Source of the DNA: an uncultured Lachnospiraceae bacterium
GTDB taxonomy: Bacteria; Bacillota; Clostridia; Lachnospirales; Lachnospiraceae
Reading direction: 5' to 3'
Length of the DNA stretch: 40,003 nucleotides
NCBI GenBank assembly: GCA_902785635.1
Contig: CACZZH010000003.1
Span: 1 to 40,003 of the forward strand
Shown: piece after piece, positions 11,830 through 30,217 of the stretch
How the letters are laid out: each line of letters opens with the position of its first letter
How positions within the stretch are numbered: position 1 is the first letter of the stretch
Position numbers and translations under genes: made by a program
The notes under the pieces: generated by a model
Told to the model about the DNA's origin: nothing
Database searches by the model: none
What the model saw: only the letters and a program-made list of their open reading frames with translations

Positions 11830-12041
11830 TCCGGATTCTGTCCTTCCTCTTCGTCCTCTTCGAAGAAATCATAGCAGTCGTCGTCATATTCGTCCTCATC
11901 TTCATCCTGGAACTTAGCCGCTGCCTTTTTGATCATGTAGCGGGCATGCCTCTTCAAAAGGGCAGCACCCGCTGCTGCCACTGCTGCGGCGGCTGCCACA
12001 ACGATCCCTGCGGCGGCTTTCTCAACTTTTGTCAGTCTCAT
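11826..12041 (-). CDS. Small membrane protein with acidic tail, unknown function
   Basis: The 71-residue protein starts MRLTKVEKAAAG. One alanine/valine-rich membrane helix (residues ~10-30) is followed by a basic stretch (KRHARYMIKKAAAK) and an extremely acidic C-terminus made mostly of Asp and Glu. AAGGAGG precedes ATG 12041, which I prefer over the upstream ATG. Its last codons overlap the amidohydrolase start by 4 nt. I recognise no family. The acidic tail would lie on the cytoplasmic side if the positive-inside rule applies. Confidence 0.75.
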   Translation of the reverse strand: MRLTKVEKAAAGIVVAAAAAVAAAGAALLKRHARYMIKKAAAKFQDEDEDEYDDDCYDFFEEDEEEGQNPE

Positions 12042-12079
12042 ACAGACCTCCTTCCGGCCCATGCTCTCTTACTATCTGT

Positions 12080-12826: not shown

Positions 12827-12836
12827 GTTCTTTCCA

Positions 12837-13634: not shown

Positions 13635-14867
13635 TTACGGATAAATGATCTTTTTGCTTCCTATCCATCCGATCACATGCGGCTTCTGTACAGGATAAAC
13701 CATTTTGAGCATCGGATCGTTATCTTTGGCGATCGAGAGATCCACATCCTTTACCTGTATGCTGTAAGGAGCGCCAAATGCAACGTATACTTTGCTTTTC
13801 ACCGCATAAATAGGGCGGTTATCGTTGAACTTCACGCTGTTTTTCATGATCCACTGATAATAACCGACTTTTTTGCCTTTTTTCGGCTTTATCACATAAA
13901 CAGCCTGCTGCAGTTCCCCGTCTTTACAATCCCGCTGATGCTTCGGTACGACCTCATAGACCGTATCCCAGACGACCTTATTGGCTTTGCGCATGTCCCA
14001 GCGTCCCTGGCTGTCAAAATACTTCTTATCATGATAAAACGAATAATTGGTCCAGTATGTATCCTGGGTATTATCCGGCACGTTCGCCCAGCCTCCGGCC
14101 GTCGTCCTGCCCTGGCTGTCCGCATAATACCAGTATCCGTTGATGGCATGCCAGCCTTCCGAAACCAGATATCCGCTCTCATCGAACACATAATAGCTGC
14201 TGCCGATCGGATATGCTCCGCCCGAAAGAGCACCTCCGCTGCTCTTGATATACTGGTTTCCGGACCAGGAACCCGATACAGAATTGAGTTTCACAGTCAC
14301 GTTGCAGGTATAGGTCTTTTTCCCGACTTTTGCCGTTATTTTCGCCGTCCCGGCCTTTGCACCGGCTTTCAGTTTCACAATATGCTTTGTGATCTTACAG
14401 ATCTCCACAACTTCCGGCTTGGAGGATTTCCATGTGATAGATGCCCTTGCCGCATTTTTGAGCACCAGCGATGCCTTCTTGCCGCTCTTAAGAGTAAGTT
14501 TGGAAGAGGAAAGCGCAAATTTGGCGACCGTCACGGTACAATTGTATTTTTTCGCGTTCACAGTGGCTGTGATCACGGCTTTTCCAGCCTTGCTCCCGGC
14601 TGTGATCACGGCACTTCTGCCGCTTCCTTTTACCTTTGCGACCGCAGCATTGCTGCTGCTCCATACCGGAGTTCCTGTAACATTTTTGAGAGTGACCTTC
14701 TCAGTCTGCTTCAGATCAAGAACTACACTGGTCTTGTCCAGACCCGCTTTAGCAGTCGTCTGTGCTGCCTGGGCAGTCATCCGTACAGACGCCGACGGTG
14801 AACATACAAGAAGAGCTGCCGCTGCTGCCACAGCAGCGATCCATTTTGTGAAATAACCGGTTTTCAT
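13635..14867 (-). CDS. Secreted Ig-like (BIG2) surface protein with cell-wall-binding-like repeats
   Basis: The 410-residue exported protein has an N-terminal signal peptide (MKTGYFTKW then an alanine-rich hydrophobic core and AQA cleavage region near residue 34). Two bacterial Ig-like domains of the BIG2 type follow (residues ~40-115 and ~117-195, with the usual WSSSNAAVAKV and ITATV strands). A segment rich in Trp, Tyr and Gly (GYWYYADSQGRTTAGGW, ~245-265) resembles choline/cell-wall-binding repeats. The C-terminal ~130 residues match nothing I recognise. AAGGAGG precedes the ATG. The gene is last in the polysaccharide cluster, 28 nt after the GT4 gene, and a terminator follows. A role in surface attachment is inferred. 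Confidence 0.82.
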   Translation of the reverse strand: MKTGYFTKWIAAVAAAAALLVCSPSASVRMTAQAAQTTAKAGLDKTSVVLDLKQTEKVTLKNVTGTPVWSSSNAAVAKVKGSGRSAVITAGSKAGKAVITATVNAKKYNCTVTVAKFALSSSKLTLKSGKKASLVLKNAARASITWKSSKPEVVEICKITKHIVKLKAGAKAGTAKITAKVGKKTYTCNVTVKLNSVSGSWSGNQYIKSSGGALSGGAYPIGSSYYVFDESGYLVSEGWHAINGYWYYADSQGRTTAGGWANVPDNTQDTYWTNYSFYHDKKYFDSQGRWDMRKANKVVWDTVYEVVPKHQRDCKDGELQQAVYVIKPKKGKKVGYYQWIMKNSVKFNDNRPIYAVKSKVYVAFGAPYSIQVKDVDLSIAKDNDPMLKMVYPVQKPHVIGWIGSKKIIYP

Positions 14868-14895: not shown

Positions 14896-16086
14896 TTATA
14901 CTGACTGAAACAGCTTTTCATACTTCCGTACGATCATGTCCCATGAGAATGCAGTCCGGATCCTGTCCCTGGCCATACGGCCCAGCTGCTCTCTTCTCTT
15001 CGGGGACATCGTTTCACAAAGTTCCATCTGCCGGCGCAGGCTTCCCTCTTCTCTGTTCCAGTAGAGCGCAGCTTCCTCTCCGACTTCGCGGTTGAAGGAA
15101 ACATCATACAGGAGACTGACCTGTGTACTCCCCAGCGCTTCCAGAAGGCTTGGATTGGTTCCGCCTACCTCATGACCGTGAATATAGGCAAAAGCATACT
15201 TCCGGATGCCGGTCAGCAGCTGTGTGTCGTATACCGTTCCGGCAAATACTACCCTTGCGTCCTTTTCGAATCCGGTTTTTGCCGCCAGATCTCTGTAAAA
15301 TTTATTTTCCTCTACATTACTGATTATTGCAAGCTTTTTTTCCGTTCCCGAAAGTACAAATTCACGCAGAATCGCTTCGTAATTATTCTCCGGTACGAAC
15401 CTGCCCACGATCAGATAGTACTGCTCTTTTTCCAGTCCTTTCTCTTTCAGCCAGGCCAGTGTCCTTTGTGCCGTCTCACCGGAAAGTTCTTTCTCCGCCA
15501 CTTCCGATCCGTAAGAAAGATACCGGATCTGCCCCCCGGCTTTCGGATAGCTCCGGCGGATATACCGGGCGATACTTTTACTGTCACATATGATCTGATC
15601 CGCCTGATGCACCATTTTATTTTCCGAATATTTCCAGTAAGCACGGATCATCCGGTTCCATTTCGCTCTTTTCCATTCGTGACCGTCCGGATTCAGAAAG
15701 AGAACTGCCCCTTCCTTTTTCAGTTTCCGGACATACGGGCGCAGAAACGGACCGATCCGGCAGGCAAGGATATAAACGACACAGCCCTCCAGCCGGCGGG
15801 ACCGGATATACTGAAGCGTCCACGAAAGAGCATCCAGATCATACAGGACTGCCTTTGCAGCTCCGACCGGTTTCATGGGTATGTAAAAACACTCCGCCCC
15901 GAACACCCGGAATGTCTCTCCGGGAGAAAGTTCATTTCCGGCAGGAGCCTTGCTGCAGGCGACATGATAACAGATATCCTCCGAGCGCCTTCTTCGCACC
16001 AGTTCCTGTACAAACGTCTCAAACCCGCCATAAGATGCGGGTATTCCTTTTGATCCTATTATAAAAACATGTTTTGCCGTACTCAT
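14896..16086 (-). CDS. DUF1972/GT4 glycosyltransferase, rhamnosyltransferase-like
   Basis: The 396-residue cytoplasmic glycosyltransferase has an N-terminus (GSKGIPASYGGFETFVQEL) that is the DUF1972 signature found in streptococcal capsule beta-1,4-rhamnosyltransferases such as Cps2T. The second half has the GT-B nucleotide-sugar region: YLIVGRFVPENN, then HGHEVGGTNPSLLEALG with the conserved Glu of GT4. It would add a sugar, possibly rhamnose, to the lipid-linked repeat unit. Its ATG overlaps the stop of the upstream membrane gene by 4 nt (ATGA). Confidence 0.88.
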   Translation of the reverse strand: MSTAKHVFIIGSKGIPASYGGFETFVQELVRRRRSEDICYHVACSKAPAGNELSPGETFRVFGAECFYIPMKPVGAAKAVLYDLDALSWTLQYIRSRRLEGCVVYILACRIGPFLRPYVRKLKKEGAVLFLNPDGHEWKRAKWNRMIRAYWKYSENKMVHQADQIICDSKSIARYIRRSYPKAGGQIRYLSYGSEVAEKELSGETAQRTLAWLKEKGLEKEQYYLIVGRFVPENNYEAILREFVLSGTEKKLAIISNVEENKFYRDLAAKTGFEKDARVVFAGTVYDTQLLTGIRKYAFAYIHGHEVGGTNPSLLEALGSTQVSLLYDVSFNREVGEEAALYWNREEGSLRRQMELCETMSPKRREQLGRMARDRIRTAFSWDMIVRKYEKLFQSV

Positions 16087-16893: not shown

Positions 16894-17997
16894 TCATTTC
16901 AGAATCACTTTCCACAGAAGTATGTAGATCACTGCATAACACACATTTGGTACCGCACACAGACCGCCCCCGATCAGAATGGATAATTTCCTTTCCCGGA
17001 AGAAGTGCAGCACCGCTATCAGGGCAATGTAAAATGCCGCCAGGAAAATTCCCATTCCGGAACCGAGACAGGCGAACATGGCTGTACCGAGAAGATCGGT
17101 ATAATATCTCCATCCGCCGCGCTGCCTGCGCAGATACAAATAGAAAAAGAGCGGCGCGATCACCGCCGGAACCAGTGATTTGCCCTGCCACAGCCGCGTC
17201 AGAATAAACACCGGCCCCTGTCTCACACTGGTATTGCCCATGATCATCAGTCCCATGCATACTGCCAGAAAGAAAAGCCGTTTTGTCCGTTCCTTCCCCA
17301 TCAGTACTCCGGAAGTCTTCCAAAGGACAATATAACACAAACATAACCAGATGACCGGCCATACGGTATGAATCATGACTGTCGGATGGATTCCGGTGAT
17401 CCGGCTGATACCCGCATAGAAGATCATGACAGGAGATACCACTTCTTTTGAGATCTCTCCCATAAAATACGTCATTTCCGCTCCCGTGTTGGGATGATAG
17501 TGATACATCGTATCTGTCTCATATGCTTCCACCGCATTTGCCACATACCGCGCATCGTCATCATCAATATGCATGCCGTAAATATAAAACCCGCACTGTA
17601 CCATCAGCAGAGCTGCAATGACCAGGGACAGAAGCAAATCTGCCCAGGGCATTCCCTTATCAGCCGCTGTGATCCGACTGTCCGGATCTGTCTGCACATC
17701 CGGCTCACTCTGCCTGATCTTTCCGGAAGAACGCAGAAGATATAATGCCCCTGCAGCTATGAGAAGAAGGCCGTGCCACACCCAAAGCAGAGCATGCAGG
17801 GAACGGTGCATCAGGATCATGGGAACAGCTGCCATCTGGAACAAGGCACACATCATCACCATACCCGCCAGATAATTGGACAGAAAACCCTCCGCATTCC
17901 GGGCCCTGCCTCTGAGCACAGATCCGCACACCTCCGGAATGCACACAAGATAAAGCACCGCCAGAAGAATGCTTAAAAACCCTTTTTGCATTACCAT
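16894..17997 (-). CDS. Polytopic DUF6077-like membrane protein (N-terminal half)
   Basis: The protein has 367 residues with about nine hydrophobic helices. The loop between helices contains HIDDDDARYVANA and a DTMYHYHPNTGAEM segment typical, as I recall it, of DUF6077, a family of large GT-C-like membrane proteins near glycan genes. The acidic loop after an early helix is where GT-C glycosyltransferases carry catalytic acidic residues, so transfer of a sugar from a lipid donor is possible (inference). The protein stops at about half the usual length, and the next gene supplies the rest. It lies 14 nt after licD. Confidence 0.7.
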   Translation of the reverse strand: MVMQKGFLSILLAVLYLVCIPEVCGSVLRGRARNAEGFLSNYLAGMVMMCALFQMAAVPMILMHRSLHALLWVWHGLLLIAAGALYLLRSSGKIRQSEPDVQTDPDSRITAADKGMPWADLLLSLVIAALLMVQCGFYIYGMHIDDDDARYVANAVEAYETDTMYHYHPNTGAEMTYFMGEISKEVVSPVMIFYAGISRITGIHPTVMIHTVWPVIWLCLCYIVLWKTSGVLMGKERTKRLFFLAVCMGLMIMGNTSVRQGPVFILTRLWQGKSLVPAVIAPLFFYLYLRRQRGGWRYYTDLLGTAMFACLGSGMGIFLAAFYIALIAVLHFFRERKLSILIGGGLCAVPNVCYAVIYILLWKVILK

Positions 17998-18011: not shown

Positions 18012-18833
18012 CTATTCCATATTCCGGATATGCTGCTGCTGTCGTTCATCAGAAGGTACATCCATGGTAAACTCCCTTCGACCGTACCGCATATACAGAT
18101 AATCCATGTAATCCCGTACGATGCGCAGTTTCAATCCGGCAAACGGAATATCCCGATAGTGCATAAAAACTCTCTGCTCATACAGGATACCCGAATAAGC
18201 CGCAGAAAGCAGTTCCGCACAGTAACGGGTCTTTCTTCCCCGGCTGTGCCTGCGCAGGAAGCCCTCCAGTTTTTCATACCGCCGGACAGGATCCTCCCCG
18301 CGCGCAAAAAGTCCCGCTGCGGAAAAAGCTGCTTTTTTCCAGCCGGTTCCCGGCGTCATTCCATTCTTCCTGTAAAGGAATGTATAAGTATAGCCCGCAT
18401 AGAGTCTCGCGATCCGGAAATAGAGCGGCGTCGGGACCTGGTCCATTACCGTTATGTCGATAAACACATGGCCGCTGCGCTCTCCCCTCGCGATCTGTTC
18501 CTGCATGTTCGTACGCAGATCCTCTACCCGTGAGAACAGAGCCGGGAGATTGTCCGCACCGTCTGTAGAATAATGATGCAGATGATAATATTCTCCCGCC
18601 TTTGAGGGATAAATGCTCAGAAAACGGTCATAGTTCTCCCTGGTCATCATCAGGTCAATATCATCGTCCCACGGGATAAATCCTCTGTATAGGTGTGCGC
18701 CGATCACGGACCCGCCGCACAGGGAATATTCGATTCCGTTTTCCCGGCAGACCCGGTCCACATCCGAGACGATTCCGAGGCAGCACTCCTGTATCTTTTC
18801 CAGTGTGGTCTCCTCTTCCTTTCTCTTTTCCAT
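18012..18833 (-). CDS. LicD-family phosphotransferase
   Basis: The 273-residue protein has the LicD nucleotidyltransferase-fold signature: YSLCGGSVIGAHLYRGFIPWDD followed by DIDLMMTRENYDRF, with the Asp cluster of the active site at residues ~54-60. The family attaches phosphocholine or other alditol phosphates to cell-surface glycans (LicD in Haemophilus and pneumococcus). No choline kinase or cytidylyltransferase (licA or licC) is in the window, so the donor is unknown. GGAAAGGAAA precedes the ATG. It lies in the leftward run between the GT2 gene and the DUF6077 genes. Confidence 0.9.
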   Translation of the reverse strand: MEKRKEEETTLEKIQECCLGIVSDVDRVCRENGIEYSLCGGSVIGAHLYRGFIPWDDDIDLMMTRENYDRFLSIYPSKAGEYYHLHHYSTDGADNLPALFSRVEDLRTNMQEQIARGERSGHVFIDITVMDQVPTPLYFRIARLYAGYTYTFLYRKNGMTPGTGWKKAAFSAAGLFARGEDPVRRYEKLEGFLRRHSRGRKTRYCAELLSAAYSGILYEQRVFMHYRDIPFAGLKLRIVRDYMDYLYMRYGRREFTMDVPSDERQQQHIRNME

Positions 18834-18868: not shown

Positions 18869-19810
18869 TTACGGCTTATACCCCGGACGGTAAACGGGAT
18901 GAAGTCCCAGCTGTTTCCTTTTCCCGTCACGAATCGCACAGTGGTAAAGCTTCCCGGTCTGCATCGCTTCCCGGGGCTTTCCCTTCAGCAGAAGCCTGAC
19001 CAGCAGAAGCATTCCGCGGACCCTCTTCCGGAGGATAATGTATTCTTTCGTGCAGAGACCGTAATGTTTTCCGGCCATATGGATCCGGTTACGGATCCCG
19101 TAATACTCCTTCCAGCCCACGACATAACTGCCGCTGTCGTCCACCACCGCTTTATGCTGAATAACTGCCTTGTTCCAGTTCAGGATCCTGGTATGCTCTG
19201 CGATCCGAAGGCAGTATTCCGTGTCATCGTACCAGATAAAATAACGCGCATCCGGATAGCCGATCTCGGGAATCAGACTGTCTGCCATGACAAGACCGCA
19301 GAATGACCCGATCTCACAGGAAAAGCTTTCCCGCCGGTATTCCTCATAGGGTACTGCTGTTTCCTTCTTCAGAATCCGGCCCTGCACACGGCGGCGATGC
19401 CCTCTGCGAATGCCGTCCGTCAGCGGTACGCCTGCAAAGCAGCGGTAGCTGCGGCCGTATTTCCCGATCGCTCTTTCGATCTGTTCCAGGAAATCCGGCT
19501 CCAGGACCGCGTCATCATCGATGATCGTGATCCAGTCCGGATGCAGGGTATGCACATGGCGAAGGCCTTCCGAAAAACCGCCTGCACCTCCCAGGTTCTT
19601 TCTCTCCCGTACAATATGAAACCTTTCTTTCCTCTCCAGTATGTTCAGATAATCAGAAGTACCGTCAGTGCTTGCGTTATCAACGATCAGAACATCATCG
19701 TACGCTCTCGTCTGGGCAAGGATCGCTTCGACGCATTCGCGCAGCAGCGCTGCCCGGTTATAAGTCACGATCAGGACCGCATGCCGGTCCGTCCTGCTGT
19801 TTCCTTCCAT
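18869..19810 (-). CDS. Family 2 glycosyltransferase (GlfT/rhamnosyltransferase-like)
   Basis: The protein has 313 residues. The GT-A fold motifs are clear: VLIVTYNRAALLRECVEAIL, VDNASTDGT, the NLGGAGGFSEGL segment, the metal-binding triplet in IIDDDAVLEPDF, and WYDDTEYCLR toward the acceptor site. This set is typical of galactofuranosyl- or rhamnosyltransferase-like GT2 enzymes. I prefer ATG 19810, with AAGGA 8 nt upstream, over ATG 19828, which directly abuts the preceding stop without a ribosome site. It acts in the cytoplasm on a lipid-linked glycan. Confidence 0.88.
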   Translation of the reverse strand: MEGNSRTDRHAVLIVTYNRAALLRECVEAILAQTRAYDDVLIVDNASTDGTSDYLNILERKERFHIVRERKNLGGAGGFSEGLRHVHTLHPDWITIIDDDAVLEPDFLEQIERAIGKYGRSYRCFAGVPLTDGIRRGHRRRVQGRILKKETAVPYEEYRRESFSCEIGSFCGLVMADSLIPEIGYPDARYFIWYDDTEYCLRIAEHTRILNWNKAVIQHKAVVDDSGSYVVGWKEYYGIRNRIHMAGKHYGLCTKEYIILRKRVRGMLLLVRLLLKGKPREAMQTGKLYHCAIRDGKRKQLGLHPVYRPGYKP

Positions 19811-19828
19811 GAGATCTGTCCTTTTCAT

Positions 19829-20785
19829 TTATGCTTTTACACGGATCCAGTTCTTCTGTGCCAGCGGAGGCTGGTAGGCGGCATTGAACCAGTGATCCGG
19901 TGCGATCACCACCTTGTCCTTTGCATCTCCGAGGAATTGAGCCCACCAGCTGAAAGTACTGTTGGAGATGATGAAATGCCGGCAGGAATACATCAGGCGC
20001 AGCTTTTCCCATACCGGATCATCTCCGCTCTCATATACTGCCTTCCCCGGCACCCGGACATTTTCCTTTACCCAGTCTACATCATCTGAAAACAGAAAAA
20101 ATACCGGATCCTCCACGAGCTTCTTCATTTCTGCCATTGCCCGTTCAAAATAATCCGCTCCGCATACATCCAGCATGGGATACTCCAGATAATTCCCGCG
20201 GCGTATCGTGACGCACACAGAGTTCACGGATGTGATCTGCTCCATCAGCGCAGCATTCTTTTCCGCTGTCGGATATTTCGGCCGGAATTCCTTCAGAAGG
20301 AGCGGCCGGATCTCCTCACAGTATCTCGCGCATTCAAACGGACCGTTCACGAATTTATCTCTCTTTCGGGAAAGAGTAAAATCGTAATCATATCCGACGA
20401 ACAGAATATACAGGCCATGCCTGTTCAACCACGGCAGGAATTTCTTTCTCCACCGGAGTCTCTTTACCGTATCTCCCCGGCCAAAAAACCGGTCCCCGGC
20501 CCAGATCAGCCCCAGGACCGCCTGCTCCGGAAGGCTGGCAGCCCGACGAAGCGGACTGCCCTTTCCATTCCAACGTGTATAGGGCGCCGTCCGGAAATGT
20601 GCCAGTGAATCTTCCCATCCGGGCATGGAAGACCTTTTGCTTTCCATCTCGATATTAGAGAAATCCAGCACCAATGCATTCCGGGAGCTTTTCCCTGCCC
20701 TGCCTGCTTTGTACTGCAGCCACCTTCCGAATGCATAGCGGAACATCTGATTGCCGAGTCTTCCGTTCATCTCAATATAGATCAT
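19829..20785 (-). CDS. GT11 alpha-1,2-fucosyltransferase-like protein
   Basis: The 318-residue protein begins MIYIEMNGRLGNQMFRYAFG, the GT11 N-terminal motif, and has VTIRRGNYLE (the GDP-fucose contact region HxRRxD in its variant form) and HFIISNSTFSWWAQFLG near the C-terminus. The family transfers L-fucose in alpha-1,2 linkage to galactose. Here the usual His and Asp of the H-R-R-x-D motif appear as Ile and Asn (IRRGN), a common variation in bacterial homologues that may mean another donor or acceptor. AGGAGAGG precedes the ATG. It is the first gene of the leftward transcript from the promoter at 20844-20872. Confidence 0.88.
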   Translation of the reverse strand: MIYIEMNGRLGNQMFRYAFGRWLQYKAGRAGKSSRNALVLDFSNIEMESKRSSMPGWEDSLAHFRTAPYTRWNGKGSPLRRAASLPEQAVLGLIWAGDRFFGRGDTVKRLRWRKKFLPWLNRHGLYILFVGYDYDFTLSRKRDKFVNGPFECARYCEEIRPLLLKEFRPKYPTAEKNAALMEQITSVNSVCVTIRRGNYLEYPMLDVCGADYFERAMAEMKKLVEDPVFFLFSDDVDWVKENVRVPGKAVYESGDDPVWEKLRLMYSCRHFIISNSTFSWWAQFLGDAKDKVVIAPDHWFNAAYQPPLAQKNWIRVKA

Positions 20786-20843
20786 TCAGCCTCTCCTTTT
20801 TGCGGCGAACGGCGGTTTCGGTCTGCCGTTCCTGTTCAATAAC

Positions 20844-20872
20844 AGTATACACAGTTCCTCCATTTGCGTCAA
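20844..20872 (-). promoter_or_regulatory. Promoter of the leftward glycosyltransferase genes
   Basis: On the minus strand TTGACG (20872-20867), 17-nt spacer, TATACT (20849-20844), 59 nt before the fucosyltransferase start. It likely drives the genes down to the Ig-like protein at 13635. Confidence 0.75.
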
Positions 20873-20884
20873 ACTGCATCCCGC

Positions 20885-20914
20885 TTTACAGATCGTCCCT
20901 GCATCCTTTATACT
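20885..20914 (+). promoter_or_regulatory. Promoter of the acyltransferase gene
   Basis: TTTACA (20885-20890), 18-nt spacer, TATACT (20909-20914), 36 nt before the ATG and back to back with the leftward promoter. Confidence 0.6.
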
Positions 20915-20949
20915 TATACGGATTTCGAATCTTTCACAAGGAGCACATT

Positions 20950-22020
20950 ATGAAGAATGATCGATCCCAGGTCAGCGCCGGAGGCGCTGGTACCTTTTTT
21001 CTCTCCCTTGCCAGTGTGATCAGCGCATTCGCAGTTGTATCCCTGCATGCCAACAGCTGTTTCCGGAATTTTGACGCCCACGCGCGGTACTGGATCACAG
21101 CAAACTTTATTGAGTGTTTCTTCTATTTTGCCGTACCGGTCTTCTTCATGATCTCCGGAGCCACTCTCCTGGATTTTTTCGACCGGTACGGCCTTGGCAC
21201 CTTTTTCCGGAAGCGGTTCGCGAAAACAGTCGTCCCCTACTGTTTCTGGAGTCTGTTCGCACTGGCTTTTCAGGTCTTTTACCTGAAAAATATCCCGGCG
21301 GACAGCGTGAATCCTGCCATGATCCGCGACGGCCTTCTGAACGGGAAACTTCTCAGTGTATACTGGTATTTTCCGACACTGTTCAAAGTGTATCTGTGCA
21401 TTCCGCTCTTTGCAGCAGTCGACCGGAAAAACCGGAAAAAGGTCTTCATCTATCTCGCTGCGGCCGGTTTTCTTCTGAATCACCTGTTTCCGTTTGTCCT
21501 CGATCTGAGCGGATCCGGCATTCCTCATCCTTATTCCGTAGCAGTTGTCTCAAAATATCTGATCTTTCTTCCAATAGGCTGGCTGCTTAAAGAATATGAT
21601 CCGGACCGGAAGACATCACTTTTGATCTGGGCTGCTGCCATTCTCGGATTTGCACTGCAGTTTTTCGGCACCTGGAAATACTCGGTTGCTGCCGGTGCGA
21701 TCGACGATACATTCAGGGAATATACAAATGTTCCCTGCATCCTCTGGTCTGCAGGTGTATTTCTTGCAATAAAAAAAGCGGGATGCGCACTCTCGAAGAG
21801 CATGTGCATTTCCCGCGTTATCCGTTTCCTGTCCGGATATACCTTCAGCCTTTATCTTCTCCACTGGTTCATGCTGCGGATCCTTGAAAAAGAATTCCAT
21901 GTCAACACATTTTCGATCTTCTACCGGCTGGGAGCTCCCTGGCTGATCGCAGCCGCTGTGATCGGACTCACATGGCTGCTTCGCCATATTCCGTTTGCAG
22001 ACAGGATACTGCCCGGATAA
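20950..22020 (+). CDS. Acyltransferase 3 family membrane protein
   Basis: The protein has 356 residues with about ten hydrophobic helices spread along its length, as in acyltransferase 3 (OafA/WecH-like) enzymes that put acetyl or other acyl groups on surface glycans. Matches include FAVPVFFMISGATLLD after the second helix and FSLYLLHWFML near the C-terminus. The N-terminal catalytic His expected in the first helix may be the one in VVSLHANSCF (His 33). AAGGAG lies 6 nt before ATG 20950; the frame is open upstream but in the divergent promoter region. It is the only rightward gene inside the polysaccharide locus and converges on the GT2 gene at 22026 with a 5-nt gap. Confidence 0.85.
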   Translation: MKNDRSQVSAGGAGTFFLSLASVISAFAVVSLHANSCFRNFDAHARYWITANFIECFFYFAVPVFFMISGATLLDFFDRYGLGTFFRKRFAKTVVPYCFWSLFALAFQVFYLKNIPADSVNPAMIRDGLLNGKLLSVYWYFPTLFKVYLCIPLFAAVDRKNRKKVFIYLAAAGFLLNHLFPFVLDLSGSGIPHPYSVAVVSKYLIFLPIGWLLKEYDPDRKTSLLIWAAAILGFALQFFGTWKYSVAAGAIDDTFREYTNVPCILWSAGVFLAIKKAGCALSKSMCISRVIRFLSGYTFSLYLLHWFMLRILEKEFHVNTFSIFYRLGAPWLIAAAVIGLTWLLRHIPFADRILPG

Positions 22021-22025
22021 ATCTC

Positions 22026-23051
22026 TTATTTTTTATAGTGCATCCGGTATACAAGATACAGGCATCGTTTCATCCTCAGTTTTCCGAGGATCCCCGTGAT
22101 CCGGAAACGTCCGTGCACCAGCTTCAGATCCAGATCACGAAAGATCTGCTTCCAGTCGGGCAGATCCATCACCTGAACAAATCTCTGCCAGCGCGTTTCC
22201 TCCGGTCCGGAAAACACATACATCCGCATGGATCCGGAGAAATGCTCCATCGCCGCAGGCTCAAAATAAGGCTGAAGCGAACGATTCCAGCCGTGAATCT
22301 CATCCCGGTAAGCCTGCAGAAGAGCATGCATCTCCTCCGGAAGATTCTCATGAAAGCGCTGTGTGACGGAACCGATCACAAGCCGGTAAAAATACACAGG
22401 CGCATCGCTTACCACGATTCTGGATACCGGATGGAGAATGTCAAAATTCCAGATCATGTCGTCCCCGACCAGCAGCTGCGGCCGGTAAGGCGTACATTGT
22501 GCGATCTCTCTTTTCAGGAAGCGGGCGTGAGGAGCCCGGTTGATCCAGCTTTCTTCATCCCGGAACGGCCCCTTTTCAAATGTAAGATAGTACTTCCGAA
22601 GCCGGTCGATGATTTCCTCCCCTCCTGCCTGGAAGTGCGCCCCGGTCATCCTGGTGCTCCAGTCTCCTTTCGTACGTACGATCCGTGCGATCAGCAGATC
22701 CGGATCTTCCTGATCGAGGAGCTTTTTCATCTCATCGAGAGCCCCCTCCAGCAGATAATCATCAGAATCCACATAGGTCACATAGCGGCCCGCAGCCTGC
22801 TGTGTCCCGAAGTTTCTTGCCGCCGCAGCGCCTCCGTGCGCCTGATAAAAAACCCGGACCTGCGGCACTTTTCCGGAGATCTTCTTCAGGCACTGCAGCG
22901 TCTCTTCGCAGCTGCCGTCATCTACAAAGATCACTTCCCAGGAAGCATGCTCATTTCCGAGAATCTTCCCGACGCACCGCTTCAGGTCCGCCGGAGGCGT
23001 ATTGTAAACAGGGATGATGATCGAAAAATCGACTGTCTTTTCTGTGTTCAT
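22026..23051 (-). CDS. Family 2 glycosyltransferase
   Basis: This 341-residue enzyme has a GT-A N-terminal domain: FSIIIPVYNTP, FVDDGSCEETLQ, GGAAAARNFG, and the DxD-type TYVDSDDYLLEGA near residue 95. The C-terminal 200 residues are less conserved and likely bind the acceptor. It adds one sugar of the repeat unit. Its ATG overlaps the end of the polymerase gene by 4 nt, giving translational coupling. Confidence 0.88.
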   Translation of the reverse strand: MNTEKTVDFSIIIPVYNTPPADLKRCVGKILGNEHASWEVIFVDDGSCEETLQCLKKISGKVPQVRVFYQAHGGAAAARNFGTQQAAGRYVTYVDSDDYLLEGALDEMKKLLDQEDPDLLIARIVRTKGDWSTRMTGAHFQAGGEEIIDRLRKYYLTFEKGPFRDEESWINRAPHARFLKREIAQCTPYRPQLLVGDDMIWNFDILHPVSRIVVSDAPVYFYRLVIGSVTQRFHENLPEEMHALLQAYRDEIHGWNRSLQPYFEPAAMEHFSGSMRMYVFSGPEETRWQRFVQVMDLPDWKQIFRDLDLKLVHGRFRITGILGKLRMKRCLYLVYRMHYKK

Positions 23052-24271
23052 TCCATTGTCACCTCGTTTTTATCGTTTCCTCCAGCTGCTCCCGGGGAAA
23101 GATATCTGCATACAAATCCCAGGGTCAGAATCACATAGAACGGCGTCCGCATTTCAAAGCAATCCCCGCAGAAGATCACAAAATAGGAACAGAGCGTAAT
23201 ACTGATGACTCTTGCAGGCATTGTATGATTCATTTTTTCCAGTTCCTGCGAAGTCCACAGCAGAAGGGCGGCGAATACCGCGATCGCGAGCAGCCCGCCT
23301 TTGATCAGCAATTCCAGAATATAGTTATGGCAGTGTACCCAGTGCTTGTTGCTGTATCTGGTCATCTTACGGAATCTGTCCGGTGAAAGGACGCCGTAGC
23401 CAAGCAGCGGCCGCTTCCGGAACCGTTTCAGCAATCTCCTCCACAGCTTTGTCCGTTTGCTTAAGGATACGCTTTTATGGAACACTCCCTTGATCAGCCA
23501 TTTAAGAGTCTTCTTATGGAGCTGAAACACTGTGAAGAAGAAGAAGGCCGCGACCCACAGGAATGTATAAAGCTTCAGGCTGTAGAACCAGCTGCTGTGG
23601 ATCACCCAGGTCAGAATGAGAAGGACCGTATAGCACGCAATACCGAGCATGGACGTCACCGACCACATACACACCAGCTGTATAATGCACAGCAGATGCA
23701 GCACCAGATAATCTGCTGCTGCCTTTTTTCCCCGCATCAGCACATCCAGGTAGCCGCAGCACAGTCCTGCCAGCATGGAAACGATGAAAACATTCTCATT
23801 TCCAAGCCAGTGCTGTGCTTCGTGGTCGATCTCCGAATAAAGACCATTCTGAAAAATGAGCCCAAGTATCAGATTGATCACAATATTAATGTAATACATA
23901 TGATAAAATGCCCGGATCATCTTTGCCGGAGCCCTTCGAACCCCCAGCTGGATCAGCATGATCATCGCCGCGATCGGCCATTCATACTTCAGGCACTTCC
24001 ACAGATCCGAACTGATTCCGCTGTAATGAAGTGTGGAAATGATCAGAATGAGTCCAAGCACTGCTGCAGTGAGGTCGAAGCGGTTCAACAGAGAGCGCAG
24101 GGACATGCAGTAAAACACTGTCAGAAGGACCAGCACAAGTATATTTCCTGCGTCGAAGCAGCGGTCCAGCCACCGCACCTGCTGCTTAATAAAATCCGGT
24201 TCCCAGAACAGCCATGCTGCCAGTAAGAAAAACCAGTAACTGCTTAAACATTTATCACGGATCGCTTTCAT
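23048..24271 (-). CDS. Wzy/O-antigen-polymerase-like membrane protein
   Basis: The protein has 407 residues and about eleven hydrophobic helices. The large loop after residue ~255 includes KRPLLGYGVLSPDRFRK and HCHNYILELLIKGG, the pattern (GxG and HNxxLE) shared by O-antigen ligases and polymerases of the Wzy_C family. It would polymerise repeat units on the outer face of the membrane after flipping. The start is the second of two adjacent ATG codons, with AGGAG 6 nt upstream. The order flippase, activase, polymerase, GT2 is transcribed leftward with short gaps. Confidence 0.82.
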   Translation of the reverse strand: MKAIRDKCLSSYWFFLLAAWLFWEPDFIKQQVRWLDRCFDAGNILVLVLLTVFYCMSLRSLLNRFDLTAAVLGLILIISTLHYSGISSDLWKCLKYEWPIAAMIMLIQLGVRRAPAKMIRAFYHMYYINIVINLILGLIFQNGLYSEIDHEAQHWLGNENVFIVSMLAGLCCGYLDVLMRGKKAAADYLVLHLLCIIQLVCMWSVTSMLGIACYTVLLILTWVIHSSWFYSLKLYTFLWVAAFFFFTVFQLHKKTLKWLIKGVFHKSVSLSKRTKLWRRLLKRFRKRPLLGYGVLSPDRFRKMTRYSNKHWVHCHNYILELLIKGGLLAIAVFAALLLWTSQELEKMNHTMPARVISITLCSYFVIFCGDCFEMRTPFYVILTLGFVCRYLSPGAAGGNDKNEVTME

Positions 24272-24289
24272 CATAAGCTCCTGCCTGCT

Positions 24290-25153
24290 TTAAATCCTGC
24301 ACACCCGGACTTCAAGCCCTGCAGACCGGATCTGCCTGCAGTAGGCTTCCATTGTTTCATCTTCTACACCCCGGTATTCCGGAGCCGGAAGTCCGAGGGA
24401 AGTGTATTTGCCTCTTCCCAGTGCATGTTCCTTCAACAGTTCCACCTGAAGCGGAGCTGCATTCTCTTCTTTCAGCCGTGTCAGCAGCCGGACTGCGCTG
24501 TCACGCTGTTCTTTCCCGTCGGTGTATCCTGCGATCACCGGCACCCGGATCACGACCGGGATTCGTTTTCCGTTTCGTCTGTACTTTAAAAGCCGTTCCA
24601 GATTCGTCAGATAACGCTTCGTATCTCCATGCTGGAACTGCATGGCCTTATCCGGATCCAGGATCTTCAGATCTGCATAGAAAAAATCGATCTGTTCCAG
24701 TGCCAGCGTCATTTCCTCTTCTCCTATATATAGAGAAGATTCGCAGGCAATATGGATCCCTTCTTCATGAAGTTTCCCGATCACCGGAGAGATCTGCCGA
24801 ATCTGCGCAAGAGGCTCTCCTCCGGAAAAAGTGACTCCTCCAGGCAAAAGCCGGATCTCATCCGCTCTGCTGATCTGCCAGCCCGTTTCCTGATTGCAGC
24901 CGCTCATCTTCTGCGCAAAGAACGTACGGTCCTTCATCAATTCCAGGATCAGATCCGTATCCTTCATCCATCTTCCGCAGATGATCTGCTTTCCGTCCCT
25001 TAAAAGGGGCTGAGGCTGCGGTCGGATCGTCTCGGGATTGCTGCACCAGGGGCAGCGCAGAGTGCACCCTTTCAGGAAAACAGTCGTACGGATCCCCGGG
25101 CCGTCATGCAGGGAAAACCGCTGGATATCACTGACAAGAATCTGACTGTTCAT
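24290..25153 (-). CDS. Glycyl radical enzyme activating protein (radical SAM)
   Basis: The 287-residue radical S-adenosylmethionine enzyme installs the glycyl radical on a partner enzyme. The [4Fe-4S] motif CTLRCPWC (CxxxCxxC) follows FSLHDGPGIRTTVFLKG, the standard activase opening, and GGVTFSGGEPL is the SAM-binding GGE motif. The stretch between them has only two cysteines, so the extra ferredoxin-like double CxxCxxxC clusters of dehydratase-type activases are absent; it is short like PflA. I start at ATG 25153 (MNSQILV), with GGAG 9 nt upstream. Its partner is almost certainly the glycyl radical enzyme at 26692-28689, with the flippase gene between them. Confidence 0.9.
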   Translation of the reverse strand: MNSQILVSDIQRFSLHDGPGIRTTVFLKGCTLRCPWCSNPETIRPQPQPLLRDGKQIICGRWMKDTDLILELMKDRTFFAQKMSGCNQETGWQISRADEIRLLPGGVTFSGGEPLAQIRQISPVIGKLHEEGIHIACESSLYIGEEEMTLALEQIDFFYADLKILDPDKAMQFQHGDTKRYLTNLERLLKYRRNGKRIPVVIRVPVIAGYTDGKEQRDSAVRLLTRLKEENAAPLQVELLKEHALGRGKYTSLGLPAPEYRGVEDETMEAYCRQIRSAGLEVRVCRI

Positions 25154-25244
25154 GCGTTTTTTCTCCATATCCGATGCCAAAGTCAGGGCCCGCCCGCGGG
25201 TACTGCGCGCAAAAGGACCGGTCTGTACTCATCGAAGTTTCTGA

Positions 25245-26690
25245 TCAATGAAGCTTTCCCCGGACCTTTTCGAGTACTCTTCCGGTGTTCTCCAGGAAAA
25301 AGCTGTCCCTGAGCAGAAAGAGGACAACAAAGTACACGGCAGCTCCCGCTGCCACCTGAAGAAATGTCCCGTACACCGGTGCCGCAACGGCTCTCCCTGC
25401 AATTTTTACGATCCCCAGCATAGCGGTTCCGGCAATAAGGTATTTCCAGCTGCTTTGAAGGATCTTCCCGAAGGAGAGTTCTCTGCGTACGAGATACAGC
25501 TGTACCAGGGCGATCACGGTCTCAGCCGCGACAGACGCGACAGCTGCGCCAATGCTGCGCCACTTTGGAATCAGCACATAATTCATGCAGAAATTCACGA
25601 CCGCACCTATGAACACCGTGAGCGTGAAGTAATTCTGTCTCCCTGTAGGAATCAGATACTGCATACCGGTGACATTGTTGATCCCGATGGCAAGTACCAG
25701 AAACCCCAGGATGCTCAGAAGCGGTATGACTTTTTCGAAGCCCGGTCCGAAATACCATGGCACAAAGCCAGACGCGATCCCAAGCAGGCCGAAGCTTAAG
25801 GGAACCCCCAGAAACCATACGAAACGATATCCGCGATACATGTAGGATCTGACCAGAGAAGTCTCTCCCCTGCCGTAATGATAACCGATCCTCGGAATCA
25901 TCACGGTTCCCAGGGAAGTGACGATCGTGAGCGTCATCTTGGAGATCTTCAGTGCCTGTTCGTAGTAACCGTTCTCAAATGCATCCCGCGTGATCACCTT
26001 GATCATCGTCTTATCCATAACGGTATACACCTGGATGGCGATCGACGGAACAAACAGAAGGACGATCTCCTTTAAATGCTTCCAGGGCTTCAGCTCCCCG
26101 ATCACCGGCCGGTCGATATAACGGGGCAGATAAAACCACAGCGAAACATCTCCTGCAAGCGCAAAAAACGAATGACCGAACACATAAAGCGGAAGATCGG
26201 AGGGTCTCCTGACAAAAGCAAAGATATAGAGGATACTCACGATCTTAAAGACCGTATTTCGCAGCACGATCTTTCCGAATTCCTCCATCCCCTGAAAAAA
26301 CCAGGTGACACTTGCCGTCACGGCGAGAAGGTTCATGGTAAGGATCAGATAAAGAATACGGTTTTCCTGATGAAGCGCAAAGGGAATATATACCAGAAGC
26401 ACGATCAGCGAAGTGAGGATCTGCAGCAGCTTCGTCTCCCAGAATACCCGGCTCCGTTTTGCTCTGTCATCCTGTACGTAGGATATCTCCCTCTGTCCGA
26501 AGATCGCGATCCCAAAAGTGGCTGCCAGGACAAAATAGGATACATCCGCTTCTGTCGCGCTTGCGATTCCTACCCCATCTGCGCCAAGAACACGGGACAG
26601 ATACGGTGCCGTTATGACCGGCGTAAGGATCAGCAGGATCTGATAGCTCACATTATAGATATAATTCCTGCGAATACTTTTCTTGCCCAT
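25245..26690 (-). CDS. Wzx-type polysaccharide flippase
   Basis: The protein has 481 residues and 12-14 hydrophobic helices in the pattern of the MOP/polysaccharide transport family. Features are the N-terminal RNYIYNVSYQILLILTPVI, then APYLSRVLGADGVG, and in the middle TVMDKTMIKVI. It moves the lipid-linked repeat unit to the outer leaflet. ATG 26690 begins one nucleotide after the stop of the glycyl radical enzyme gene, with AAGGAG 12 nt upstream inside that gene, which argues for co-expression of the two. Confidence 0.9.
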   Translation of the reverse strand: MGKKSIRRNYIYNVSYQILLILTPVITAPYLSRVLGADGVGIASATEADVSYFVLAATFGIAIFGQREISYVQDDRAKRSRVFWETKLLQILTSLIVLLVYIPFALHQENRILYLILTMNLLAVTASVTWFFQGMEEFGKIVLRNTVFKIVSILYIFAFVRRPSDLPLYVFGHSFFALAGDVSLWFYLPRYIDRPVIGELKPWKHLKEIVLLFVPSIAIQVYTVMDKTMIKVITRDAFENGYYEQALKISKMTLTIVTSLGTVMIPRIGYHYGRGETSLVRSYMYRGYRFVWFLGVPLSFGLLGIASGFVPWYFGPGFEKVIPLLSILGFLVLAIGINNVTGMQYLIPTGRQNYFTLTVFIGAVVNFCMNYVLIPKWRSIGAAVASVAAETVIALVQLYLVRRELSFGKILQSSWKYLIAGTAMLGIVKIAGRAVAAPVYGTFLQVAAGAAVYFVVLFLLRDSFFLENTGRVLEKVRGKLH

Positions 26691-26691
26691 T

Positions 26692-28221
26692 TCAGCATAC
26701 AGCTCCTTCACTGCGCAGAGCCCGTTCGATCAGCAGATTCTGGTAGTCTTCGGGCAGATCCGCGAAATATGCAGAAAATCCCCATACACGGACGATCAGA
26801 TCCGGATAGTCAGCGGGATTCTTCTTTGCCGCGATCAGCGTCTTACTGTCCACTACGTTCATCTGCATCTCAAAGAAGCCCATCGAAACAGCTGCTTTAA
26901 TAAACAGAACAAATTTATCGATGTTGCTGCGGATCAGCCCGGGGGAGACGAAAAAGTCCACCACATTTCCGTTGGAGCGGTTCCCGCTGTAGTCCATTTT
27001 CCCTGCAAATGCGGTCAGTTCCGTAAACGGAATGGGATCCGCACAGGAAATATGGACGCCGAGCGGTGTTCCGGCTGCCCGTCCGTCCAGGGTCGCGCCG
27101 GTATTCTTTGCATATTCAATATAGTTGGGAGAACTCATCCCCCATTTCAGCCGTCCGCCGAACCGGTTCCGGTAAGACACCAGCCGTTCATCAACCTGCT
27201 GCAGGATGCGGCGTGTCAGCGTGATCACCGGTTCTTCATCCTTGCCAAACCAGTGCATCTGCCGGAGTCTGTCCCCCAGCGCCGGATCAGAAGCATAGCT
27301 GCTGAGCACTGCATTCTTCAGCTGCGACAGCGTAATTTCCTGTTTTTCAAAGACCAGTTCCCGGACGATCAGGAGCGAATCCACCGCATTGGAGAGTCCG
27401 ACCCCCAGAATCCCATAATCACTGTACACCGCTCCGCCCTGTGCAATGTCCCTGCCGCTGTGCGCGCAGCCATCTGTAAACAGTGTCATCAGCGGATCCG
27501 GTTCCCACTCGATCCCGTCCAGATGTGCACGGATCGTTTCCAGTTCGTCGTCCAGACATTTCAGGTACAGAGTAAGTACTTCTTCAAAACTTTTGCACTC
27601 TGCAAATTCCGGCATCCCGGCCATCCGGGAAAGCGCCTGTGCATAATTGATATCGATGATGTTGTTCTTCTCAAGGGATCTCCCGTACGCGACCGGTTCC
27701 CAGCAGGCAGAGGTGACATAATTGCAGGCGTCTGCATGGGAATATCCGAAAGCTTCCAGTGCCGGTTCGACCACTTCGTCATTTGAAAGGACCGGGCATC
27801 CGATGCCGGTCGCTATACATTCCAGGGCTTCCCGGATCAGATCATCCGGCGTATCTGAACAGATCCGCAGAAAAAGCTTCGGATCCGGAAGACGCTTCTT
27901 TATCATGGCACGGATAAAGATACGGGTAAGCGCATTTTCAAAATATCTGCCTTCCGTGTCCTTTCCGCCAAGAATTATGATCTGGCCGGTATCCCCCAGG
28001 GACACATAATTGCTTTTATACGCATAATAGCGATGCAGCTCATCATAGAAATCCATGATCATTGCAGTCGCTTCTTTCTCGTCTTCGTCTGCAAATCTGT
28101 CCAGCAGCACATCCAGCCTGCCAAGACCTACCAGCCTGTGCCTGGACTGCCAGAAAAGGGATGACCAGAAAAGGATTCTCTGAAGCGCCTCCTCCAGACT
28201 CTCTGCTTTCTGCGTACGCAT
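26692..28221 (-). CDS. Glycyl radical enzyme, catalytic part (downstream of an in-frame UGA)
   Basis: 509 codons from the first ATG after the UGA. The active-site cysteine is in SACWEPVAYG (codon at 27705-27703) and the radical glycine in VRVWGFSAYF (codon at 26781-26779), 29 residues from the C-terminus, as in the PFL/dehydratase superfamily. A single Cys followed by x-Glu (C-W-E), rather than the Cys-Cys of pyruvate formate-lyase, points to the eliminase (dehydratase or lyase) branch. The expected N-terminal ~155 residues lie upstream in the same frame, beyond the UGA at 28261-28263. ATG 28221 has GGAGG touching it with no spacer, a poor ribosome site, so independent translation is doubtful. 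With readthrough the enzyme would have 665 residues, shorter than the usual ~780-850. The substrate is unknown; the polysaccharide context suggests a sugar, polyol or linker metabolite. Confidence 0.85.
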   Translation of the reverse strand: MRTQKAESLEEALQRILFWSSLFWQSRHRLVGLGRLDVLLDRFADEDEKEATAMIMDFYDELHRYYAYKSNYVSLGDTGQIIILGGKDTEGRYFENALTRIFIRAMIKKRLPDPKLFLRICSDTPDDLIREALECIATGIGCPVLSNDEVVEPALEAFGYSHADACNYVTSACWEPVAYGRSLEKNNIIDINYAQALSRMAGMPEFAECKSFEEVLTLYLKCLDDELETIRAHLDGIEWEPDPLMTLFTDGCAHSGRDIAQGGAVYSDYGILGVGLSNAVDSLLIVRELVFEKQEITLSQLKNAVLSSYASDPALGDRLRQMHWFGKDEEPVITLTRRILQQVDERLVSYRNRFGGRLKWGMSSPNYIEYAKNTGATLDGRAAGTPLGVHISCADPIPFTELTAFAGKMDYSGNRSNGNVVDFFVSPGLIRSNIDKFVLFIKAAVSMGFFEMQMNVVDSKTLIAAKKNPADYPDLIVRVWGFSAYFADLPEDYQNLLIERALRSEGAVC

Positions 28222-28233
28222 CCTCCGGTAGTA

Positions 28234-28263
28234 ATGCCCTGCTTTTGCCAGGGACGGGTCTCA
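28234..28263 (-). other. In-frame UGA followed by a small hairpin
   Basis: On the minus strand UGA (28263-28261), then 7 nt, then CCCUGGCAAAAGCAGGG (28253-28237), a 17-nt stem-loop with a 5-bp stem and optional extra C-G pair around AAAA. A bacterial SECIS hairpin also follows its UGA closely, but this one starts earlier and is weaker than the E. coli fdhF example, and the affected residue is not a catalytic one. I list it as an observation, not as a selenocysteine call. Confidence 0.35.
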
Positions 28264-28689
28264 TGCGCTGCATCTGCTTTCGATTCTCTCCAGGTACTCT
28301 TCCACCGCACACAGGACCTGATAGTTGTTCCTGTACACGTCGTTCTCACCGGAAGCGTACATCTTCTTCAGCTCCCCGATCGAATGATCGATCACCAGGG
28401 AATAGTCCGGCGGTATATTATCCGTCATAGGACAAAAGGCCGGAAAGGAAAGTCCGGTGTCGATCCACACCTGAAATCTTCTTCCCGGCCTTGTCACGAT
28501 CCGGATCTGACGAAGCATGGAGCGGATCTGACGTACCTTATCTCCGCTCCGCCATGCAAGGCGGAGCGGCGTTTTTTCTTCCGGAGGCATTGACTCATAT
28601 CTCTGCGCGGAGATGGGCAGATATCGTTTCCGGAGCAGATACTGCGCCGGGTATGTTCCCTTGACCAGGGTCTTTACAGGGTTAGCCAT
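28261..28689 (-). CDS. Glycyl radical enzyme, N-terminal part ending at an in-frame UGA
   Basis: 142 codons starting MANPVKTLV, with GGAG 6 nt before the ATG. The sequence has the look of the N-terminal helical region of the PFL-like family (DYSLVIDHSIGELKKMY, then YQVLCAVEEYLERIE). It ends with TGA at 28263-28261, yet the same frame continues open without interruption into the catalytic part: the 13 codons between UGA and the next ATG read DPSLAKAGHYYRR. This is either a recent nonsense mutation, an assembly error or a recoded codon. The gene lies 40 nt after the initiating glycosyltransferase in the polysaccharide operon. Confidence 0.8.
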   Translation of the reverse strand: MANPVKTLVKGTYPAQYLLRKRYLPISAQRYESMPPEEKTPLRLAWRSGDKVRQIRSMLRQIRIVTRPGRRFQVWIDTGLSFPAFCPMTDNIPPDYSLVIDHSIGELKKMYASGENDVYRNNYQVLCAVEEYLERIESRCSA

Positions 28690-28729: not shown

Positions 28730-30217
28730 TTACGCTGCACCTGAACCCCGCAATGCCACCAGAATCGTCTTTGCCAGCAGCTTCAGATCCAGCAGCAGGC
28801 TCCAGTTGCGGATATATTCCATATCCAGTTTCACGACTTCTTCGAAGTCCATCACATTGTTTCTTCCGCTCACCTGCCACATTCCCGTGATGCCGGGCCG
28901 GGTCGCCATACGCGCTCTGTGGTTGGGACTGTATTTTTCCCACTCATCCATCGTCGGCGGGCGAGTACCCACCAGACTCATATCTCCCCGTAGGACATTC
29001 CAGAACTGCGGGAACTCATCAATGGAGGTACGGCGTATAAAATTGCCGATTCCTCCGGGACTCCCATCCTTTCGTTTTTTCCCGCTTCCGATGATCCTGG
29101 GATCGTCATCCATCTTAAACATCAGTCCGTCGGGGCTCTTGTTTTCCCCCTGCAATTCTTCCTTCCGTTTTTCCGCATCCGGGTACATGCTCCGGAACTT
29201 GTACATGCGGAATGTCTTCCCGCCGCGCCCGACACGGGTCTGTGCAAAAATGACCGGTCCCGGGGAAGCCGCATAGATCAGAGGGGCAATAAACACAAAA
29301 AGGATCCCGGTCAGAATACAGCCGACAAGCCCTCCGACGATATCCAGAAGCCGCTTCAGCAGCAATTCCGGCAATGTCACCGTACGCACTGCGTAAGTCA
29401 GGAAAACATTCTGTCCGGTCTTTTCGATCAGAATCTGGTCTGTAATGGCATCAGGCTCAGCAAGCGTTTCCAGCAGCCGGTGGACAATGATGCCCATATC
29501 GATAAAATCCCTTCCCAGGGACTGCTCAAGTGCATCATTCTCAGGAAGATACAGATATACCTCGTCCACCCAGTTATGGGCCGCAAACGTAAGGGCATCC
29601 GCCTCATCTCCCTGTATCTCATATCCTGCACCGCTCTGCGTATCAGCAGGTTCCGTTTCCTGTGCACCGGTTCCGTTCCCTGCCAGATAGATTCCGGCCT
29701 GAATCACGCAGCCGGGATCCTGCTGCGAATTCTTTATCGAATCCATTACCTGCGGGATCCACTCCCGGGAAGTAACTACCATTACGGATCTGTTCACCGA
29801 CGATTTCCGGCGGTAGGCTATGATCCGCTTCAGGAAATACCGCCCGACGGCCGTAAGCAGGACATAAAAGACCCAGGTCATGGCAAGGACATAACGGGAC
29901 AGATATACTGCCACATGGAGAAAATATAAGAACACGACATCCAGAATCCCCATATAGACTGCACTGTAAAGGATCCGGACCAGTTCCCCGGACATGGATC
30001 TGCGCAGAATCCCTCCGTAGGGATCTGCAAGAAACGCATGCACAAAAACACACAGAAACAGCAGCAGTGCTTCTGTCCGGTAAATGTCATGATAATGTAT
30101 ATTACGAAGCTGCAGCACAAAAATCTCCGCGAGGAGAAAAGCCAGCTGCAGTCCGATGATATCCATCAGGAAGAAATCCCAGTGTTTCCACCAGCCTTCT
30201 GTCTGTTTCTGATACAT
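28730..30217 (-). CDS. Initiating polyprenyl glycosylphosphotransferase (CpsE/WbaP-like)
   Basis: The 495-residue membrane enzyme starts repeat-unit synthesis by moving sugar-1-phosphate to undecaprenyl phosphate. The N-terminal half has four to five membrane helices and a soluble CoA-binding-like part (residues ~140-265). The C-terminal bacterial sugar transferase domain has a helix at ~305-330, then PGPVIFAQTRVG, TFRMYKFRSM, RTSIDEFPQFWNV, DMSLVGTRPP and RPGITGMWQVSGR, the complete signature set. It is the first gene of the locus, behind the promoter at 30289-30317. The sugar (Glc, Gal or other) cannot be told. Confidence 0.93.
   Translation of the reverse strand: MYQKQTEGWWKHWDFFLMDIIGLQLAFLLAEIFVLQLRNIHYHDIYRTEALLLFLCVFVHAFLADPYGGILRRSMSGELVRILYSAVYMGILDVVFLYFLHVAVYLSRYVLAMTWVFYVLLTAVGRYFLKRIIAYRRKSSVNRSVMVVTSREWIPQVMDSIKNSQQDPGCVIQAGIYLAGNGTGAQETEPADTQSGAGYEIQGDEADALTFAAHNWVDEVYLYLPENDALEQSLGRDFIDMGIIVHRLLETLAEPDAITDQILIEKTGQNVFLTYAVRTVTLPELLLKRLLDIVGGLVGCILTGILFVFIAPLIYAASPGPVIFAQTRVGRGGKTFRMYKFRSMYPDAEKRKEELQGENKSPDGLMFKMDDDPRIIGSGKKRKDGSPGGIGNFIRRTSIDEFPQFWNVLRGDMSLVGTRPPTMDEWEKYSPNHRARMATRPGITGMWQVSGRNNVMDFEEVVKLDMEYIRNWSLLLDLKLLAKTILVALRGSGAA

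Follow-up and report, generated by a model that had tools for sequence, protein, structure and literature searches.

A family of eliminase-type glycyl radical enzymes in surface-glycan loci of gut anaerobes, with a probable role in modifying a sugar-type building block

To our knowledge, characterized glycyl radical enzymes (GREs) serve catabolism, fermentation or nucleotide reduction. Pyruvate formate-lyase (PFL) carries a signature of two adjacent cysteines, while the eliminase class is marked by a C-x-E motif. Among the latter, PflD, YbiW and the enzyme of PDB entry 8id0, which was solved with 1,5-anhydromannitol-6-phosphate, are catabolic proteins of 763-810 amino acids (aa) with sugar-phosphate substrates; according to a review, YbiW and PflD cleave two anhydrohexitol 6-phosphates to 1-deoxyfructose-6-phosphate by means of the glycyl radical (PMC12441222). 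Described here is a GRE gene at positions 26692-28689, minus strand, of a 40,003-nt stretch of DNA from an uncultured Lachnospiraceae bacterium (assembly GCA_902785635.1, contig CACZZH010000003.1, positions 1 to 40,003; hereafter the window, meaning this whole stretch), together with its relatives in other loci (L numbers) and genomes (G numbers).

The GRE subfamily to which this gene belongs is real, lies in glycan assembly loci and is undescribed as far as the literature searches show; within the titles and abstract openings covered, which included few subscription journals, no description of a GRE in a Wzx/Wzy locus was found. The observations consist of motifs, predicted fold, family relationships, genetic neighbourhood and one fusion of a glycosyltransferase with an activase. 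The explanation that best accounts for them is an undescribed family of eliminase-type GREs that modify a sugar-type building block of a glycan exported by Wzx; in surface-glycan clusters its genes are passed on as a cassette that brings along a dedicated activase and, in most cases, a flippase of one particular Wzx clade. Judged jointly for family, cassette and chemistry, this explanation is moderately probable. If a GRE family is indeed kept next to Wzx in the glycan loci of anaerobes from the gut, the known functions of GREs would be extended to the biosynthesis of surface polymers; glycyl radical chemistry would then build, rather than degrade, bacterial surface glycans, and unusual sugars would be predicted on commensal surfaces. 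Intact orthologues with activases exist (L020, L022, L054 and others), so the proposal can be tested now.

The genes of the window locus were named from Pfam and NCBIfam profile matches, and all of the core set lie on the minus strand:

28730..30217, minus strand: initiating phosphoglycosyltransferase (PGT); TIGR03025 EPS_sugtrans, above cut-off
26692..28689, minus strand: GRE, its reading frame split into 142 aa + 509 aa; open reading frames (ORFs), Pfam, relatives' profile and family tree
28261..28263, minus strand: in-frame TGA, GRE codon 143; sequence and constraint comparison
27694..27711, minus strand: Cys loop SACWEP; sequence, with C-W-E in 13/13 of the alignment
26764..26790, minus strand: Gly loop RVWGFSAYF; sequence, with W640 and G641 in 13/13 of the alignment
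25245..26690, minus strand: Wzx-type flippase; Polysacc_synt, 80 bits; ATG at 26690, with GTG at 26711 as alternative start
24290..25153, minus strand: radical-SAM GRE activase; TIGR02494 above cut-off, CxxxCxxC being CTLRCPWC at 25066-25043
23048..24274, minus strand: Wzy-like polymerase; Wzy_C

PGT, Wzx, Wzy and glycosyltransferases thus occur together, as in a Wzx/Wzy-type glycan cluster, and the profile matches place the PGT, GRE, Wzx, activase and Wzy-like genes where a first-pass annotation of this DNA had put them, all on one strand. Its intergenic gaps of 1-91 nt agree with the measured 40 nt (PGT-GRE), 1 nt (GRE-Wzx, assuming the ATG at 26690), 91 nt (Wzx-activase) and 15 nt (activase-Wzy), and the SACWEP, RVWGFSAYF and CxxxCxxC motifs that it reported are all present. 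It had, however, taken 26692-28689 for a single open GRE frame and overlooked the TGA at codon 143. Both GRE domains (PF02901 and PF01228) score far over the Pfam thresholds in the 509-aa part, at 175.7 and 49.3 bits, and the GRE call is therefore not due to chance.

With the 509-aa part as the query, 14 of 299 genomes matched at E below 1e-60, of which seven, the window's own included, scored at least 430 bits and the others at most 261; a search of the genome collection with the same query gave two loci, L020 and L021. The family is present in 2 of 13 genomes of the window genus (G000 and G309), the third match in the genus (G308, 206 bits) being a GRE of a sister clade and not a family member. 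When 392 genomes of the order were searched with a profile of seven intact members, eight proved to contain the family at scores of at least 746 bits; five of these eight were new and one belongs to a different family of the order. Weaker GREs, scoring 330 to 363 bits, turned up in three more genomes. The phylum sample of 398 genomes, in which scoring covered the top two candidates of each genome, contained a family member in the window's own genome alone, with the next best at 330 to 384 bits; spread beyond the order was accordingly rejected, as none of the 397 other genomes had one among those candidates. Carriage on plasmids was also rejected: of 117 matching plasmid records, none matched over 80% of the query. 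Within the samples taken, the family has so far been found only in the order of the window, presumably Lachnospirales, and it comprises 14 distinct loci (the window, L020 to L027 and L052 to L056).

The phylogenetic tree was built from 13 family GREs (the degraded copy in L026 was left out and the window was represented by its 509-aa part), 11 members of the sister clade, here termed W-type (L028-L035, L037, L047 and L049; Lachnospiraceae, ~690 aa), and nine other GREs (E. coli PflD, YbiW, two PflD-like proteins, two from the window's genome, glycerol dehydratase (GDH), CutC and 2f3o). The 13 family GREs are monophyletic with support of 100/100 on a long stem, and 100/100 branches separate them from PflD and YbiW. 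The first NCBIfam scan used the 509-aa part and a rescan used three intact relatives (L020, L022 and L054), which reached 222 to 238 bits on the general PFL2/dehydratase model against a cut-off of 678. On the CutC, HypD and sulfopropanediol dehydratase models their scores ran from 134 to 174 bits, where the cut-offs are 1000 to 1100 (CutC TIGR04394, 157 to 174 against 1050; HypD NF043068, 155 to 163 against 1100), and on PFL TIGR01255 L054 and L020 scored 26 to 35 bits against 994.2, with L022 not among the matches listed. Clustering inside a GRE group of known function with a clear catabolic partner was one of the outcomes that the first-pass annotation had named as speaking against it. The family does not fall inside such a group: the clade is separate and the models of known GREs are missed widely.

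The family has the marks of the GRE superfamily: a C-terminal Gly loop and a PFL-like domain by Pfam, a predicted fold like those of GREs, and a dedicated radical-SAM activase beside or near the GRE in 14/14 loci. An alignment of the 13 family GREs, the sister clade and the nine other GREs was numbered according to L020. C333-W334-E335 is invariant in 13/13, so that C-W-E stands in place of the adjacent cysteines of PFL; together with the PFL score far below cut-off, this agrees with the earlier placement in the C-x-E eliminase branch and not with PFL. Residues D237, Q240, D273, K275, W334, N347 and W640 are common to the family and the sister clade (D273 in 12/13 of the family), whereas among the nine other GREs, some of whose rows are gapped, Q240 occurs in four and the remaining six in none. 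PflD and YbiW, which share the eliminase motif, have N at K275, A at W640 and V or I at W334. Glycerol and propanediol dehydratases (1r8w and 5i2g) also share C-x-E but are about 120 residues longer, and the family lacks the pairing of the active-site residues Asp447 and His281 of GDH: the former position is N347, Asn in 13/13, and the latter varies (T/R/K/N/P). CutC, HypD and the sulfopropanediol dehydratases resemble the family in fold, C-x-E and radical-SAM activase, while the position of Phe395, the substrate-packing Phe of CutC (PMC8473560), is Gly or Gln in the family.

The sister clade is of similar length and shares C-W-E, D237, Q240, D-P-K, R-V-W-G and the Asn at the Asp447 site, but it forms its own 100/100 clade, mostly reads ACWEF and RVWGWSGYF where the family reads ACWEP and RVWGFSAYF, and differs at four sites that do not vary within the family, namely K229 (here Y), Y253, K519 (here R) and D582 (here T). 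Its genes lie beside sugar importers, kinases and aldolases (a DeoC-like protein), as read from the sequences; examples are L028 8979-11057 and L030 8265-10619, and no description of their function was found in the titles and abstract openings searched. The predicted structure of the L020 GRE (pLDDT 86, pTM 0.88) has 1r8w, a glycerol dehydratase, as its best Foldseek match, and the PDB profile matches are led by 8id0 (306 bits), followed by PflD 8yjo (279), GDH (272) and CutC (247). The residues shared with the sister clade and the 8id0 match suggest a sugar-type substrate and nothing more specific. In the region between CxxxCxxC and GG-SGGE, the activating enzymes of eliminase GREs as a rule hold auxiliary iron-sulphur clusters. 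Most family activases may have lost these clusters, because 10 of the 12 scored have 0 to 2 Cys there; L027 has 4 and L056 has 5, scoring was not possible for L026, and the set did not include the L024 fusion.

Genes in the family loci were identified by eye in ORF lists and the key genes were checked with profiles built from those loci. Homologue neighbourhoods had been proposed as a check, and all 14 loci lie among glycan-assembly genes, with Wzx next to the GRE or parted from it by the activase alone in 12, compared with 0 of 8 sister-clade loci checked (Fisher p 1.4e-4). The order of GREs, activases and Wzx genes varies among loci while the trio is kept together, as it also is in 5/5 loci from the order search, which were found after the pattern had been noticed and were later included in the profiles. 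Neither the family GRE nor its activase is present in 23 control Wzx loci, two of which share one genome and one of which, L089, is not in a glycan cluster. In L024, a 746-aa ORF (10911-13151) joins an N-terminal family 2 glycosyltransferase to a C-terminal GRE activase, a single case. A tree of 38 Wzx sequences, 12 linked to the GRE and 26 unlinked ones chosen by likeness to a profile of the linked Wzx, groups 11 of the 12 in one supported clade of 13 (100/98), with the L054 flippase outside it; the two unlinked members (G188 and G292) have no GRE or activase within the 20 kb read. The clade fits a flippase adapted to a shared cargo feature, but it also fits plain co-transfer, and many capsule flippases are reported to have broad specificity (PMC11759038).

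Radical chemistry at this locus, a sugar-type substrate and action before flipping are the parts of the favoured explanation that we infer. The radical-SAM activase would generate a radical on the Gly of RVWG, which would pass to the Cys of CWE to give a thiyl radical able to abstract hydrogen from the sugar-type substrate; the Glu beside the Cys would assist departure of a beta leaving group, and the deoxy, keto or ring-opened product would enter the repeat unit flipped by the neighbouring Wzx. In a more specific form, put slightly below an even chance, a dedicated GRE subfamily would act by radical elimination on a sugar linked to a nucleotide, a phosphate or a lipid, immediately ahead of export. 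The residue so formed would lie outside the repertoire of the usual nucleotide-sugar dehydratases, and a flippase clade would have adapted to it. Several points weigh against this interpretation. The substrate class is argued from sequence and context, and the fold ranking places GDH, propanediol dehydratase and CutC first, with 8id0 at rank 16 and 8id7 at rank 30. The family is rare, at the 8 of 392 order genomes given above, and L024 and L027 have no Wzx within 24 and 32 kb, yet hold many glycosyltransferases. Co-transfer of neighbouring genes could account for part of the linkage. The window copy carries the TGA and may be inactive in that strain, and a second copy, in G098 (L010/L026; L026 5646-7022), is degraded, with a short N end and an internal TGA elsewhere.

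The TGA at 28263-28261 splits the window GRE into a 142-aa ORF (28261-28689) and a 509-aa ORF that begins at the ATG at 28221. A profile of intact relatives spans both sides as one protein (955 bits, one TGA inside), and L020, a same-genus relative on a contig of G309, has a whole GRE of 669 aa with 77% identity over the 509 aa. Between the window and L020, pN/pS is 0.27 before the stop and 0.25 after it, and both parts have therefore been under similar constraint through most of their divergence. Because the relative is intact and both halves are similarly constrained, the TGA stems either from a recent nonsense mutation or from an error of assembly. It is extremely improbable that it is decoded as selenocysteine and that the GRE is a selenoprotein: the TGA is in frame with constraint on either side, and the G098 copy likewise has an internal TGA, but the latter is at a different site and the window TGA sits in a variable linker of the family alignment. 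Neither a SECIS-like (selenocysteine insertion sequence) fold nor selenocysteine machinery was found, as the RNA downstream is no more stably folded than its shuffled versions (z 0.35 to 0.86) and SelB has no match above cut-off in the four genomes searched (G000, 79% complete; G309; G098; G046). Selenocysteine was rejected on the RNA fold, the SelB searches and the differing G098 site, and general reassignment of TGA was rejected because the GRE frame's own terminator is TGA.

Other accounts concern the role of the GRE. It is quite unlikely that the enzyme is a catabolic or fermentative GRE travelling as a mere passenger: the sister clade is catabolic by context and glycan loci are frequently exchanged, but no catabolic partner is common to the 14 loci (by eye), the trio stays together through changes of gene order, and the L024 fusion ties the activase to a glycosyltransferase. 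Action on galactofuranose, at its C5-C6 diol and before or after a GlfT2-like transfer, is very unlikely. A GlfT2-like transferase occurs in 6/14 family loci and 1/23 control loci (p 0.007), once fused to the activase, and UDP-galactopyranose mutase lies in or beside L026, L052 and L056; the GlfT2-like profile was, however, seeded by five of those six, and the sixth (L024) scores 106 bits, below a control hit of 201 bits. The mutase (Glf) is in the locus in 3/14 against 3/23 and over cut-off in 10/13 of the genomes (11 with G098 fragments) against 134/150 in the bacterial family, a sample that contains at least four GRE genomes, and searches of the two genomes nearest the window, G000 (79% complete) and G309, did not find it. 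Galactofuranose via the mutase was rejected as a common theme for want of enrichment in locus or genome. An unlikely account, again, is that the GRE makes a non-sugar substituent (a polyol, a glycerol- or choline-type group or a phosphonate), which would be CTP-activated before LicD-type transferases attach it. It would draw on LicD in the window, L052 and L054, on cytidylyl- or nucleotidyltransferase genes in L026, L052, L053 and L054, and on the diol dehydratases known among GREs from PDB titles. Against it, LicD is not enriched (3/14 versus 8/23 control Wzx loci, p 0.48), nor are LicC-like transferases (4/14 versus 5/23), and the Asp447 position of GDH is Asn in every family member; a LicD/CTP-activated substituent was rejected as a common theme for lack of enrichment over the control loci. 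The first-pass proposal that the GRE makes or modifies a glycan building block stands as to its glycan-locus context (14/14); the deoxy-sugar, polyol or choline identity that it offered as examples is conjectural. Its added restriction, that this happens only under anoxia, is probably moot, because Lachnospiraceae are anaerobes.

The remaining genes of the window locus are as follows:

22026..23051, minus strand: family 2 glycosyltransferase; profile match
20674..22020, plus (opposite) strand: acyltransferase 3 family protein; start uncertain
19829..20785, minus strand: family 11 glycosyltransferase; profile match
18869..19828, minus strand: GlfT2-like family 2 glycosyltransferase; best PDB match GlfT2, weak, E 9.6e-9
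18012..18833, minus strand: LicD family protein; profile match
16894..17997, minus strand: DUF6077 membrane protein; profile match
14896..16086, minus strand: DUF1972 / family 4-type glycosyltransferase; profile match

The DUF6077 gene at 16894-17997 was considered as a broken gene, and this was rejected because the Pfam model is covered almost end to end. In both Wzx-less loci the gene immediately upstream of the GRE encodes a small protein (L024 8480-8878, 132 aa; L027 12571-12987, 138 aa) that appears Rossmann-like by eye and has no Pfam match. L052 2058-4892 encodes a fusion of a nucleotidyltransferase, a CTP-transferase-like domain and phosphoenolpyruvate mutase adjoining LicD, followed further on by a phosphonopyruvate decarboxylase-like gene and an alcohol dehydrogenase, an arrangement that resembles phosphonate decoration within a glycan locus. 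At the end of the window's glycan cluster, 13635-14867 is predicted to encode a surface protein that has weak Big-like domains and, by eye, repeats similar to choline-binding ones. At L053 15339-19900, close to the glycan locus, surface proteins whose repeats look like choline-binding ones occur together with a fusion of a LicC-like protein and a kinase (also by eye).

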